The position numbers and the translations under genes were made by a program. The notes beneath the pieces were generated by a model. That model had not been told where the DNA came from and searched no databases. It was given only the letters and a program-made list of their open reading frames with translations. Below, one piece after another: positions 3,743 through 42,207 of a DNA stretch of 64,000 nt (position 1 is its first letter; each line of letters starts with the position of its first letter). Source of the stretch: Chitinophagales bacterium (GTDB lineage Bacteria; Bacteroidota; Bacteroidia; Chitinophagales; UBA10324); contig JAIBAY010000002.1 of the NCBI GenBank assembly GCA_019694975.1, forward strand, positions 571,252-635,251, in the 5' to 3' direction.

Positions 3743-3937
3743 ACAGAATAATAATATTGTTTTAATGAAGCTGGTGAAGTTACTTTTTTGATTACAATTA
3801 CTCAAAATCATATACCTGTCGCCGGCAACACGTGCTTCACGTCCGCTGTTTCAAGTCAAAAAATCTACCGGCTGTTTTCACAACACACTTATGCCTTCAT
3901 TCAACAAACAATCTGCTTCGTGGTACTATTTTTTAAA

Positions 3938-4053
3938 AGCTATCTCACAATAGGTTATTAATGCGGTCATGCCGAATTTATTTCGGCATCTGTCAATGAA
4001 TGGTGGAGATCCTTAAACAAGCACAGGATTATTCCAGGTATTTTGAGATAGCT
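3938..4053 (+). repeat. Palindromic interspersed repeat, copy R1 (116 bp)
   Basis: First of four copies in the window. Ends are inverted repeats (AGCTATCTCA at the left, TGAGATAGCT at the right). Inside lie one perfect hairpin (ATGCCGAA...TTCGGCAT) and a second, decayed one around 'ATCC...AGGAT'. The conserved core CATCTGTCAATGAATG is shared by all copies. R1 ends 40 bp before the start of the short-chain dehydrogenase gene. It has no coding capacity and looks like a MITE- or REP-type element. The rest of the 3743-4093 gap shows nothing recognisable. Confidence 0.85.
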
Positions 4054-4093
4054 TACAGATTTACAACCTTTACATCATCATGCATAGTCACAA

Positions 4094-4924
4094 TTGATTC
4101 CTTTGAATAAAGACAGTCTTCAGCATAAAGTAGTGGTGATTACCGGCGCTTCTTCCGGCATCGGAAAGGCCTGCGCATTTGCCTTCGCCACTGCCGGCGC
4201 AAAGGTGATGCTCGCTGCACGCAATGAAGAGAAGCTGCGCAGTGTTGCAACGGAACTAACACAACATGGCCATACTGCCGTTTATTGTGTTACCGATGTG
4301 AGTGTTGAAAATGATTGCCGTAAGCTGATGGAACAGACCGTGCGGGAATTCGGCACCATTCATATCCTCATCAACAATGCCGGTATTTCCATGCGCGCGG
4401 TTTTTCGCGATGTTGAACTGAAGGTGATCCGTCAGCTGATGGATATCAATTTCTGGGGAACGGTGTACTGCACCAAATATGCGATCAGTGAAATTCTGAA
4501 GAACAAAGGCAGCATTGCCGGCGTATCTTCCATTGCCGGATATAAAGGCTTGCCCGGCCGCACCGGTTATTCAGCTTCCAAATTCGCGATGAAAGGATTT
4601 CTTGATGCCTTACGGGTGGAGAACATAAAAACAGGCATACATATCATGGTCGTTTGTCCGGGTTACACTTCCTCCAATATCAGGAACACGGCACTCAATC
4701 AAATTGGTCAGCAACAGGGCGACAGTCCATTGGATGAAAACAACCTGATGAGCGCGGAAGCAGTGGCTGCACACATCGTGAACGGCATCATTCTCCGCAG
4801 GAGAACGGTAATACTGACATTGCAGGGCAAACTCACAGTACTGCTGAATAAGTTTTTTCCCTCGATGATGGACAGGATGGTGTATAATGTGGTGTCGAAA
4901 GAAAAAGACTCACCGTTCACCTAG
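4094..4924 (+). CDS. Short-chain dehydrogenase/reductase (SDR), classical type
   Basis: A 276-aa Rossmann-fold NAD(P)-dependent oxidoreductase. Visible motifs: cofactor loop TGASSGIG (17-24), NNAG (94-97), and the catalytic set Asn119, Ser146, Tyr159, Lys163 (YSASK). The basic Arg43 after the second strand suggests NADP(H) preference. Substrate unknown. There is no ATG in frame; translation must start at TTG 4094 or TTG 4103, since an in-frame TAG sits at 4085. The gene is squeezed between repeat copies R1 and R2, the latter starting 2 bp after the stop codon. Length is normal for the family. Confidence 0.9.
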   Translation: MIPLNKDSLQHKVVVITGASSGIGKACAFAFATAGAKVMLAARNEEKLRSVATELTQHGHTAVYCVTDVSVENDCRKLMEQTVREFGTIHILINNAGISMRAVFRDVELKVIRQLMDINFWGTVYCTKYAISEILKNKGSIAGVSSIAGYKGLPGRTGYSASKFAMKGFLDALRVENIKTGIHIMVVCPGYTSSNIRNTALNQIGQQQGDSPLDENNLMSAEAVAAHIVNGIILRRRTVILTLQGKLTVLLNKFFPSMMDRMVYNVVSKEKDSPFT

Positions 4925-4925
4925 C

Positions 4926-5046
4926 AGCTATCTAAAACAGGCAATCAATGCTGTCATGCCGTATTTATTTCGGCATCTGTCAATGAATGAAAGAGTTCCT
5001 GATCCTGATCAATCGGACAGGATGACTCCTGGTATTTTGAGATAGG
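4926..5046 (+). repeat. Palindromic interspersed repeat, copy R2 (~121 bp)
   Basis: Second copy, same orientation as R1, starting 2 bp after the SDR stop codon. Left end AGCTATCT, right end TGAGATAGG (last base diverged). The second hairpin is expanded relative to R1 and R3 (CCTGATCCTGATCAATCGGACAGGAT). Because it directly follows a stop codon and can fold into hairpins on either strand, it may also act as a transcription terminator between the convergent SDR and MORN-lipoprotein genes (inference). Confidence 0.85.
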
Positions 5047-5083
5047 TTCGATTCAGAAAAGCAATTTCCCATCTGATACTGCA

Positions 5084-7295: not shown

Positions 7296-7340
7296 TCGCC
7301 TGCAGGATAAAGGATGCCGTGCTCACCGGTAATAACTATA

Positions 7341-7456
7341 AGCTATCTCAGAACAGGCAATCCATGCGGTGATGCCGAATTTATTTCGGCATCTGTCAAT
7401 GAATGGAAGAGATCCTGAAACAAGTTCAGGATGACTACAAGTATTTTGCGATAGCT
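7341..7456 (+). repeat. Palindromic interspersed repeat, copy R3 (116 bp)
   Basis: Best preserved copy together with R1: left end AGCTATCTCA, right end TGCGATAGCT. Contains both internal hairpins (ATGCCGAA...TTCGGCAT and ATCCTGAA...TTCAGGAT). It sits 45 bp downstream of the pyrC stop codon. The rest of the 7296-7645 gap holds no gene that I can support; a 61-codon frame across R3 is repeat sequence. Confidence 0.85.
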
Positions 7457-7645
7457 GCTAATAATTTAGAACTATCAACCGCCGTAAAGTGCCTGCTGCC
7501 CAAGTCAGTTTTCATTTCAACCCTGAATCTTTGCCCTGCGCCCATATTCATGCCCCGTTTCACTTTGTGTATCGTTGCATGCCTGTAAAAAATGAGCTCA
7601 GCGGATCGCTTTTATTTTGATACATTCAACCAAAATTAAATCAAC

Positions 7646-26852: not shown

Positions 26853-28130
26853 CTATTGACCGGCGACCTGCATATTTCTTTTAAGCGAGAAATTGATAGC
26901 AGCATGCACACCAAGCAGGAAGTTGTGCGGATCATCAAACTCCAGATTTTCCGGCGTGTCTTTTACGAACAGGTTAGAACCAATGGAAGTGCGGATACCA
27001 ACGGTAACAAAGGATGACTTCCGGCTGATAAAATCATAATCCAGCGCCGCCACCAATGCATATTCATTCTTGCGGAAAAGCTGCTGATTCGATACTCTCT
27101 CTTTGCTTTCATCAACACTGTAGGAAACAAGCCTGCCATACTGAACACCCAATGAATAATTGACAAAGAAGGGTGATTCCGTTATGCCTGACCAGCCTTG
27201 CAGCTTGTGGCGAAACAGCAATGGGAATTGCATGTAGTTGAATGAAATATGTTTCTGTATATATTCCAGGCTTGTGGTCCGGTTATTAGTGGGAAGGTAT
27301 TTATAACGCTGCCCTTCCTGCGAATGAATGATCCACGCACCTTCCAGTCCCCACTTATTATTGAAATTGTATCCGCCCTGAATCATCAGTGCAATGCCGA
27401 ACGTAGGTGAGAATCGCAGATTTTCATCATGATATGCTTTGCTGTCTGCAATAAATGTGGTGTTGAATGTTTGTCCGAATCCGGCATAGAATCCTTTTGC
27501 ATCAGCTATATAAAAATCAGGATTTTTCGCTGCAGCCGGATAAACCTGCTGATTATCATTGATTCCTTTTGCAAAGACAGCAGACGGTCTTGAAATCTCC
27601 GCAAATTGTAAATGCAGCGGCTCCATCTGTTCATTTTCCGCCTGCCAGCCAAAGGGTACCTGTGAATCATTGCTGAGTGCAGGGAAAGAAGCAGTCTGCA
27701 TACCGTATGATTCATCAGTTAAATTATCTGGATCATTCGTGAAACTAAATGCCTCACTATGCAATGGCAGATTGACTGTTCCAGATCCCAAATCAGCAAC
27801 ATTTTTATTTTGCAGAATAGTTGCAGCTGCCAATGTATGTTTTGAAGAAAGAGATTTTTCAGGTAATGCACCTTTAGTTACCTTCAGCTGTTTTCCGGCC
27901 TTGTCATTATTACCCGGCTGCAGCGTAGAGGTAAGCCAGTAGGTACCGAAACCAAGCAGTAACAACAATGCAAACAGCAAGCCGCGCCTGGCCGCAGGAT
28001 TGACATGCCTTTCGAGTTGAAGGCTGCCGGAAAGCCGGTTCCATACCCTGCCCGACGGCTGTGCCTTAAAATGACGCAACTTCCTGCTGAACTGTTCATC
28101 AACAATATGTCTATCAGAAGACAGCGGCAT
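26853..28130 (-). CDS. Membrane-anchored outer-membrane-barrel-like protein, putative anti-sigma partner
   Basis: 425 aa. Residues 1 to about 48 are a charged cytosolic segment (HIVDEQFSRKLRHFKAQPSG), followed by one membrane helix (about 49-67, GLLFALLLLLGFGTYWL), a low-complexity linker, and a C-terminal region (about 200-425) with the features of an outer membrane beta-barrel domain (GFGQTFNTTF, GGYNFNNKWGLEGAW, FPLLFRHKL, GVQYGRL). It overlaps the ECF sigma factor gene upstream by 17 bp, so it is likely translated with it and may act as its anti-sigma factor. The barrel-on-an-inner-membrane-anchor plan is odd but recurs in Bacteroidota. Confidence 0.8.
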   Translation of the reverse strand: MPLSSDRHIVDEQFSRKLRHFKAQPSGRVWNRLSGSLQLERHVNPAARRGLLFALLLLLGFGTYWLTSTLQPGNNDKAGKQLKVTKGALPEKSLSSKHTLAAATILQNKNVADLGSGTVNLPLHSEAFSFTNDPDNLTDESYGMQTASFPALSNDSQVPFGWQAENEQMEPLHLQFAEISRPSAVFAKGINDNQQVYPAAAKNPDFYIADAKGFYAGFGQTFNTTFIADSKAYHDENLRFSPTFGIALMIQGGYNFNNKWGLEGAWIIHSQEGQRYKYLPTNNRTTSLEYIQKHISFNYMQFPLLFRHKLQGWSGITESPFFVNYSLGVQYGRLVSYSVDESKERVSNQQLFRKNEYALVAALDYDFISRKSSFVTVGIRTSIGSNLFVKDTPENLEFDDPHNFLLGVHAAINFSLKRNMQVAGQ

Positions 28131-41952: not shown

Positions 41953-41997
41953 TTTTCACCGTCATGTTTTCCGTGTTGAGGCAACAATACAACCAGA

Positions 41998-42120
41998 AGT
42001 TATCTAAAATACCCGGAGTCATTCTTTCCTGATTGATCGGGAGCAGTATCTCTTCAATTCATTGACAGATGCCGGAATAAATTCGGTTTGACCGCATTGA
42101 TTGCCTGTTTTGAGATAGCT
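41998..42120 (-). repeat. Palindromic interspersed repeat, copy R4 (inverted, ~123 bp)
   Basis: On the minus strand this copy reads AGCTATCTCAAAACAGG ... ATTTTAGATAACT, in line with R1-R3 over most of its length; the conserved CATCTGTCAATGAATT core and the CCGAA...CCGGCAT hairpin (partly decayed) are recognisable. It lies 45 bp after the PH-like gene and just ahead of the GNAT gene, whose apparent upstream codons fall inside it. Confidence 0.85.
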
Positions 42121-42207
42121 TCTTCTTATCAGCTACTAATGAATATCCGGAAACGGCGGAATTCAGTTTACCCGGCAAGTTTTTTTAATGAAATGCATAA
42201 AGGCGAT

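Follow-up and report, generated by a model that had tools for sequence, protein, structure and literature searches.

The palindromic repeat that occurs four times in the window (the whole 64,000-nt stretch of DNA analysed, from a Chitinophagales bacterium) belongs to a family of 85 copies in this genome, which we interpret as MITE with a pair of REP-like palindromes inside. These elements have probably been mobilized in trans by a transposase, most likely an IS5-family, IS427-like enzyme, that is now absent from this genome or undetected in it. The initial description of the copies as "MITE or REP-type" elements, made from the sequence alone, is borne out in both halves: the ends and the dispersal are MITE-like, and the palindromes inside are REP-like. 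Whether a transposase moves the copies or they act as RNA signals had been left open; the balance now leans to transposition, in view of a match between the family's ends and those of an IS5-type element, and of stems that show no sign of selection on pairing.

Copies in the window

All four copies (R1-R4) lie at the positions first assigned to them, and their end-to-end alignment holds. The limits drawn for them were too short: the copies reach ∼3 bp further on each side. Their coordinates, and those of the two hairpins within each, are as follows.

3935..4056, plus strand: copy R1, short-hairpin type, 115.9 bits (the initial 3938-4053 plus 3 bp per side)
3969..3989, plus strand: R1 hairpin 1, REP-like unit, ATGCCGAA-TTTAT-TTCGGCAT (from the sequence and the profile)
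4009..4029, plus strand: R1 hairpin 2, decayed, ATCCTTAAACAAGCACAGGAT
4923..5049, plus strand: copy R2, long-hairpin type, 120.8 bits
4956..4976, plus strand: R2 hairpin 1
4996..5023, plus strand: R2 hairpin 2, long type
7338..7459, plus strand: copy R3, short-hairpin type, 131.8 bits
7372..7392, plus strand: R3 hairpin 1
7412..7432, plus strand: R3 hairpin 2, ATCCTGAA-ACAAG-TTCAGGAT
41995..42123, minus strand: copy R4, long-hairpin type, 117.5 bits
42069..42089, minus strand: R4 hairpin 1, decayed, AAACCGAATTTATTCCGGCAT
42021..42049, minus strand: R4 hairpin 2, long type

Against the family profile, the four copies score 115.9-131.8 bits (E 4e-35 to 5e-40); the profile was built from 32 copies that include R1-R4, so these scores are not independent. 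No other site in the window reaches 2 bits or more, barring R1-R4 themselves on the opposite strand. When the conserved core alone was searched, allowing up to 3 mismatches, there were five matches in the window, compared with 0.38 expected from shuffles, one of which (at 27823) is unrelated to the family.

Genome-wide copy number and anatomy

A search of the whole genome (4,295,313 bases, i.e. 4.3 Mb, in 14 contigs), proposed in the sequence-only reading as a check on whether there are just four copies, revealed many more. With one copy as a query there were at least 40 matches, the best 40 of 126 candidates having been scored, and a profile search with E up to 1 yielded 117, second-strand matches and matches in tandem arrays among them. 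Re-scoring of the fetched sites with the HMM built from 32 copies yielded the 85 copies, 79 at 88 bits or more and six weaker. Any profile match that fell in the arrays on contigs C7, C12, and C1 (431-433 kb), and any that scored below 40 bits, was excluded from this count. Allowing up to 3 mismatches, the core CATCTGTCAATGAATG is matched 154 times in the genome vs 15 times for a reversed control. Both ends are spanned in 77 of the 79 best copies; the other two, which have no recognizable left end, were kept in the flank tests described below. Copies are spread over 13 of the 14 contigs, on both strands (49 minus, 36 plus), with 28 on contig C2, where 15.7 would be expected by length.

The terminal inverted repeats, first described as 15 bp long, do exist and are longer: the consensus ends are perfect inverted repeats over ∼20 bp, with weakly conserved outermost bases (38-75%). 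Inwards from the left, the consensus contains hairpin 1, GTC-ATGCCG(G/A)A-TTTAT-TTCGGCAT-CTGTC, which a spacer separates from a second hairpin of opposite sense; the right end follows. Elements are mostly 116-125 bp between AGCT ends (one measures 130 bp) and contain no transposase gene. They fall into two length groups, 60 copies of 122-130 bp with a long second stem and 19 copies of 116-118 bp with a shorter one. Among the shorter copies, 11 have an ACAAG loop, as counted by reading the copy list (two further ACAAG matches fall outside the hairpin), and six are, by appearance, long-type copies with a 6-7-base deletion. Three mini copies of ∼76 bp with one hairpin each (C2:276678, C4:120105, and C1:773025) are among the six weaker matches. 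Differences between the hairpins of R1-R4 had been attributed to independent change. This is true in part, as there is ordinary decay (on average, copies of the two length groups differ from their group consensus by 13 and 14%), and in part they are instead length variants of hairpin 2. Because the median pairwise identity is 79% and only the closest pair reaches 97.6% (the next is at 93.5%), most copies are old.

Two sites on contig C6 deserve separate mention. A fragment (L126 1994-2072) matches the family on both strands and is apparently an inverted partial duplication. The interval C6:57468-58594, considered as a candidate autonomous element, is instead a family copy, one of the six weaker ones, that is split by the remnant of an IS4-family element (NF033592, E 9e-7, below the cut-off of this model; no Pfam match); as judged by eye, each junction carries the 9-bp repeat GATCAATCG.

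A pair of REP-like palindromes inside the element

The interior resembles the CGTC-type REPs described in PMC3733652, which also consist of GTC followed by an 8-bp stem beginning with AT and a 5-base loop, and form inverted pairs. REP stems of this kind measure 8-9 bp, begin with AT, and enclose loops of 4-5 bases; hairpin 1 has a stem of 8 and a loop of 5 in the consensus and in three window units, and the long-type hairpin 2 has a longer stem. According to the same source, these REPs are also present in Bacteroidetes, mostly form HH dimers, and are reported to lack a dedicated or associated transposase gene (PMC3733652). Our family's likeness to them in pairing lies in the inverted arrangement, and the match to their HH orientation is putative. 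The two differ in the tag, which is CGTC, TGTC, or CCTC in the REPs and GGTC or AGTC in the MITE consensus, in the tail, which is CCA-like in the former and CTG and CTC in the latter, and in the terminal inverted repeats, which our family has and which that account does not describe for CGTC-type REPs (PMC3733652).

Closely similar palindrome pairs without the MITE ends are found in this genome as tandem arrays on C7, C12, and C1. The C7 array unit has CGTCATGCCGAATTTATTTCGGCATCT and then TTCAAT, where the MITE has GTCAAT, and the free-standing C7 and C12 arrays do carry CGTC before one palindrome. Of 59 other genomes searched, 7 contain parts of such pairs, in matches confined to positions 24-106 of the 116-position query; the full element was found in none. 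Because the pair occurs where the ends do not, it would be older than the MITE; the multiplied unit itself is a MITE carrying the REP-like pair.

The arrays have features of their own. Two inverted tandem arrays on C7 (108348-110100 and 118035-118855, with periods of 175 and 193 bp) flank ∼8 kb that include a pyruvate:ferredoxin oxidoreductase gene (Pfam POR_N, 4e-83) among other genes. On C12, the arrays at 73.3-74.7 kb and 87.8-89.4 kb are mixed with 21-bp tandem units of the CATGCCAGCACACAATCACGT type, and one of them extends to the contig end.

The ends match those of an IS5-family element

The 17-nt end TAGAAGCTATCTCAAAA, searched with up to one mismatch in 396 genomes of the order, has 56 outside matches in 45 genomes, compared with 20 for the reversed pattern used as a control. 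From these 56 matches, 20 stretches of surrounding sequence were examined. In genome G287, which belongs to another family of the order, three exact matches all lead into the same sequence. One belongs to a complete 841-bp element that reaches a contig end and has an imperfect inverted copy of the end on its other side; the remaining two continue into contig ends, and the right end of the element also opens a further G287 contig. The element has two frames, 153 and 161 codons long and overlapping, that match IS5-family models (DUF4096, E 4e-27; DDE_Tnp_1, 4e-20; NF033580, 4e-31, just under the cut-off, and 1e-35, over the cut-off). The 17-nt end of the MITE is identical to the left end of this 841-bp IS5-family IS. 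In size and two-frame layout, the IS is like members of the IS427 group, which are described as 832-865 bp long, have two frames that overlap, and mostly make duplications of 2 bp (PMC3281130); its assignment to this group rests on size, layout, and NF033580 rather than on ISfinder.

A DNA search with the G287 IS gave matches in 2 of the 396 genomes, and related IS fragments with 16 of the 17 end bases were found in G367 (68% over 350 columns) and G215 (64% over 227). In addition, palindromic elements of 164-165 bp with similar ends but interiors unlike that of our family are present in G024 (L153 508-671) and G367 (L154 2025-2189). These two, from two other taxonomic families, are 68% alike, and a further 79% relative is located at G367:C67:8765-8923. 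The remaining fetched sites, which have a single close end, may be due to chance; they include an exact 17-nt match in G185 that could be linked to no IS seen.

A transposase gene bounded by the same ends, which had been put forward as something to look for, was not found in this genome. Transposase models PF01609, NF033580, and PF01797 were applied to it, and the two IS5-type models gave no matches (PF01609 at E up to 0.1 and NF033580 at E up to 0.01). Among the first 100 of 133 end matches listed, one kilobase-size interval with two ends was inspected and is the interrupted copy on C6 described above. A parental element with the same ends is thus present in other genomes of the order and was not detected in this one, and no genome examined has both the MITE family and the matching IS. 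Because the assembly is in 14 contigs, a repeated IS could be hidden in an assembly gap.

Target sites

A target-site duplication, the other sign of transposition that it had been proposed to look for, was seen at none of the boundaries or lengths tested. The largest z in a scan for direct duplications across seven boundaries and 11 lengths (77 combinations) was 2.1. Flanks of the 79 copies scoring 88 or more, to which these flank tests were limited among the 85, follow the pattern AYY^RRT, the last base on the left being a pyrimidine in 67 and the first base on the right a purine in 71. In a 2-bp test, identical bases stand on the left and the right in 34 and 44 of 79 copies, vs 36.2 and 42.0 when shuffled, and a left dinucleotide other than TA, seen in 51 copies, is duplicated in just four. 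At copies whose edge forms a stop codon (see below), the far side was readable in 11 of 12, and TA is present there in one; together with the null flank scans, this does not support a TA duplication, and TA was rejected as a clean target duplication. Seven of these 11 copies, or eight if one base was lost in R2, are compatible with insertion into a stop codon right after its T, ahead of its last two bases. As the background rate for this pattern is 42-47 of 79, the fit is suggestive only.

These flanks are what would be expected of a mover of an unidentified class that makes no duplication and inserts between a pyrimidine and a purine, its IS5-like ends being due to convergence or to shared recognition. 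AYY^RRT sites without duplication indeed misfit the 2-bp duplication usual in the IS427 group (PMC3281130). We nevertheless consider this explanation unlikely, since all 17 nt are identical to the end of a multi-copy IS5 element, and related ISs share 16 of the 17 end bases. The most likely mover remains an IS5-family, IS427-like transposase, against which stand the missing duplications, where the IS427 group is described as mostly making 2-bp ones (PMC3281130), and the fact that the matching IS sits in another taxonomic family. Target duplications are described as frequent but not universal in MITEs (PMC4596501).

Y1 transposases of this genome

A REP/REPIN-type family could also be moved by a Y1 tyrosine transposase (RAYT or TIRYT), which acts on single-stranded hairpin DNA and makes no target duplication. 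The REP-like palindromes inside the element and the missing duplication would suit such an enzyme, and this genome has three Y1 genes. At all three loci, however, the family profile has no matches, even at E up to 10, and the loci end in other repeats; a Y1 gene flanked by the repeat, by which RAYT-type systems are recognized, was therefore not found. The same ends occur, moreover, on an IS5-family element, and CGTC-type REPs are reported as not transposase-associated (PMC3733652). A Y1 transposase was consequently rejected as the mover and is, in our view, decidedly improbable. One Y1 transposase element is present twice (C4:456082 and C4:460854), 99.9% identical over 752 bp and with GGCGCAAGCGTCCGCTTGTGCC hairpins at its ends, and is probably a recently mobile element of another type.

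Location relative to genes

As claimed at the outset, the copies are intergenic. None of the 85 copy midpoints lies in a called gene, genes having been called with a crude, simple hexamer-based caller. Four called gene starts extend 2-37 bp into a copy; these starts may have been miscalled. The further claim that copies sit close to gene ends is right overall, since they are nearer to ends than to starts, but does not apply to R1, which sits between two gene starts. Measured from the copies, gene ends are a median of 58 bp away (90 cases) and gene starts 126 bp (75 cases), and 39 of the 90 gene ends vs 8 of the 75 gene starts are within 40 bp. Neighbouring genes converge on 22 copies, diverge from 16, and are in series around 42, as classified for 80 of the 85 copies, the other five having one neighbour missing.

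In 12 of the 90 cases, the gene terminates precisely with the TAG at the edge of the element as its stop codon, and no called gene ends deeper within a copy. Had genes been truncated at random, stops further inside would be expected as well. In the window, the left edge of R2 forms the stop TAG (4922-4924) of a short-chain dehydrogenase gene (4094-4924). This dehydrogenase stops at the same residue in G002, a genome of the same genus (∼66-69% DNA identity), where the 105 bases after the stop contain no element, i.e. half an empty site.

Stem decay and the RNA signal explanation

Finally, the copies might be a transcribed RNA signal for processing, stabilization, or termination, kept by selection on its fold. 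The predicted fold is strong, with z-scores for R3 of -4.5 on the plus strand and -4.1 on the minus strand; exceeding shuffles on both strands is what is expected of any inverted-repeat element. The greater proximity of copies to gene ends than to gene starts would also fit, but they have no single facing relative to the gene ending there (36 opposite, 32 same). An Rfam search of the window gave no match, and the number of terminator-like sites around R1-R3 does not clearly exceed that in shuffles (6 vs 4.3, sd 2.5), with one of the sites in R2.

Selection on pairing was assessed in two trimmed alignments split by length (60 long copies; 19 shorter, mixed ones). In the long copies, compensatory changes number 33 in the ends (33.1 in shuffles), two in hairpin 1 (1.6), one in the outer part of hairpin 2 (1.1), and five in its inner part (3.7); the corresponding counts in the shorter copies are 6 vs 6.9, 0 vs 0.7, and 1 vs 1.8. 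Single stem changes that keep pairing in the long copies amount to 42 of 171 in the ends (44.4 expected without selection, using the inner 16 pairs), 13 of 56 in hairpin 1 (14.4 expected), and 26 of 138 in hairpin 2 (37.5 expected). Neither compensatory changes nor kept pairs are therefore clearly above shuffles or the unselected expectation. In the same copies, hairpin 1 changes at 0.118 per site vs 0.099 for unpaired core sites, the end regions at 0.177 per site, weakly conserved outermost bases included, and hairpin 2 at 0.137 and 0.237 changed cells per pair, i.e. ∼0.07 and 0.12 per site. The shorter copies, a small mixed sample of 19, run against the reading of MITE decay, since their hairpin 1 changes less than unpaired sites (0.069 vs 0.125). 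An RNAalifold consensus of one copy alignment was weak and missed the hairpins, and the model built on it served as a sequence profile only. Because paired and unpaired sites change at similar rates and base pairing survives no more often than expected by chance, a conserved RNA role is not supported; stems that evolve without sign of selection on pairing led us to reject a selected RNA signal, which appears very improbable.

Discussion

The family has several hallmarks of MITE, being short and devoid of a transposase gene, with inverted ends and 77 dispersed two-ended copies; another hallmark, the target-site duplication, was not found. Among the closest known systems, MITEs with IS5 ends in Porphyromonas gingivalis, which like our bacterium belongs to Bacteroidota, are likewise non-autonomous, with inverted ends equal or near-equal to those of IS5-family ISs, and their duplications are variable or missing (PMC4596501). 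They differ in their end sequence, in having IS5 elements in the same genomes, where we found none, and in their interior, the REP-like pair being a feature of our family (PMC4596501). MITECca01 of Cardinium is similarly lineage-restricted, mostly intergenic, and present in many copies (169), but it is larger (∼240 bp), derives from the IS982 family, and still coexists with intact IS copies (PMC9769881).

No description of our MITE family was found in the literature searched. In a species-genome collection, the exact core has one match, in Aquitalea, which by estimate is about what chance would give; very near genomes may be absent from the collection. The family, which was not found in the other genomes searched, is probably extinct.

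From these comparisons we infer mobilization by an IS5-type transposase, capture of the palindrome pair, and loss of the transposase. The ∼20-bp terminal inverted repeats would have been recognized by a transposase acting in trans, most likely an IS427-like member of the IS5 family. The inverted pair of REP-like palindromes would have existed on its own before its capture and, within a unit with these ends, would have multiplied to ∼85 copies. The transposase would then have been lost from this genome, and the surviving intergenic copies would have decayed without selection on folding.

A more specific version of this scenario is put forward tentatively, as one that may well prove wrong. The element would be a chimera, in which a REP pair was captured between the ends of an unrelated DDE IS and multiplied by an IS5-type transposase that makes no target duplications, chooses AYY^RRT sites, and re-creates a TAG upon entering stop codons. 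How REP pairs without a transposase spread is left open in the portion of PMC3733652 available to us, and such a chimera, if true, would provide a concrete spreading route for REP pairs of a type without a known transposase. The TAG-supplying edge shows how elements of this kind can lie at the end of a gene and leave the protein neither longer nor shorter. More generally, the comparison of stem decay with change at unpaired sites is a reusable test, by which an ambiguous repeat was here settled as a mobile-element family.
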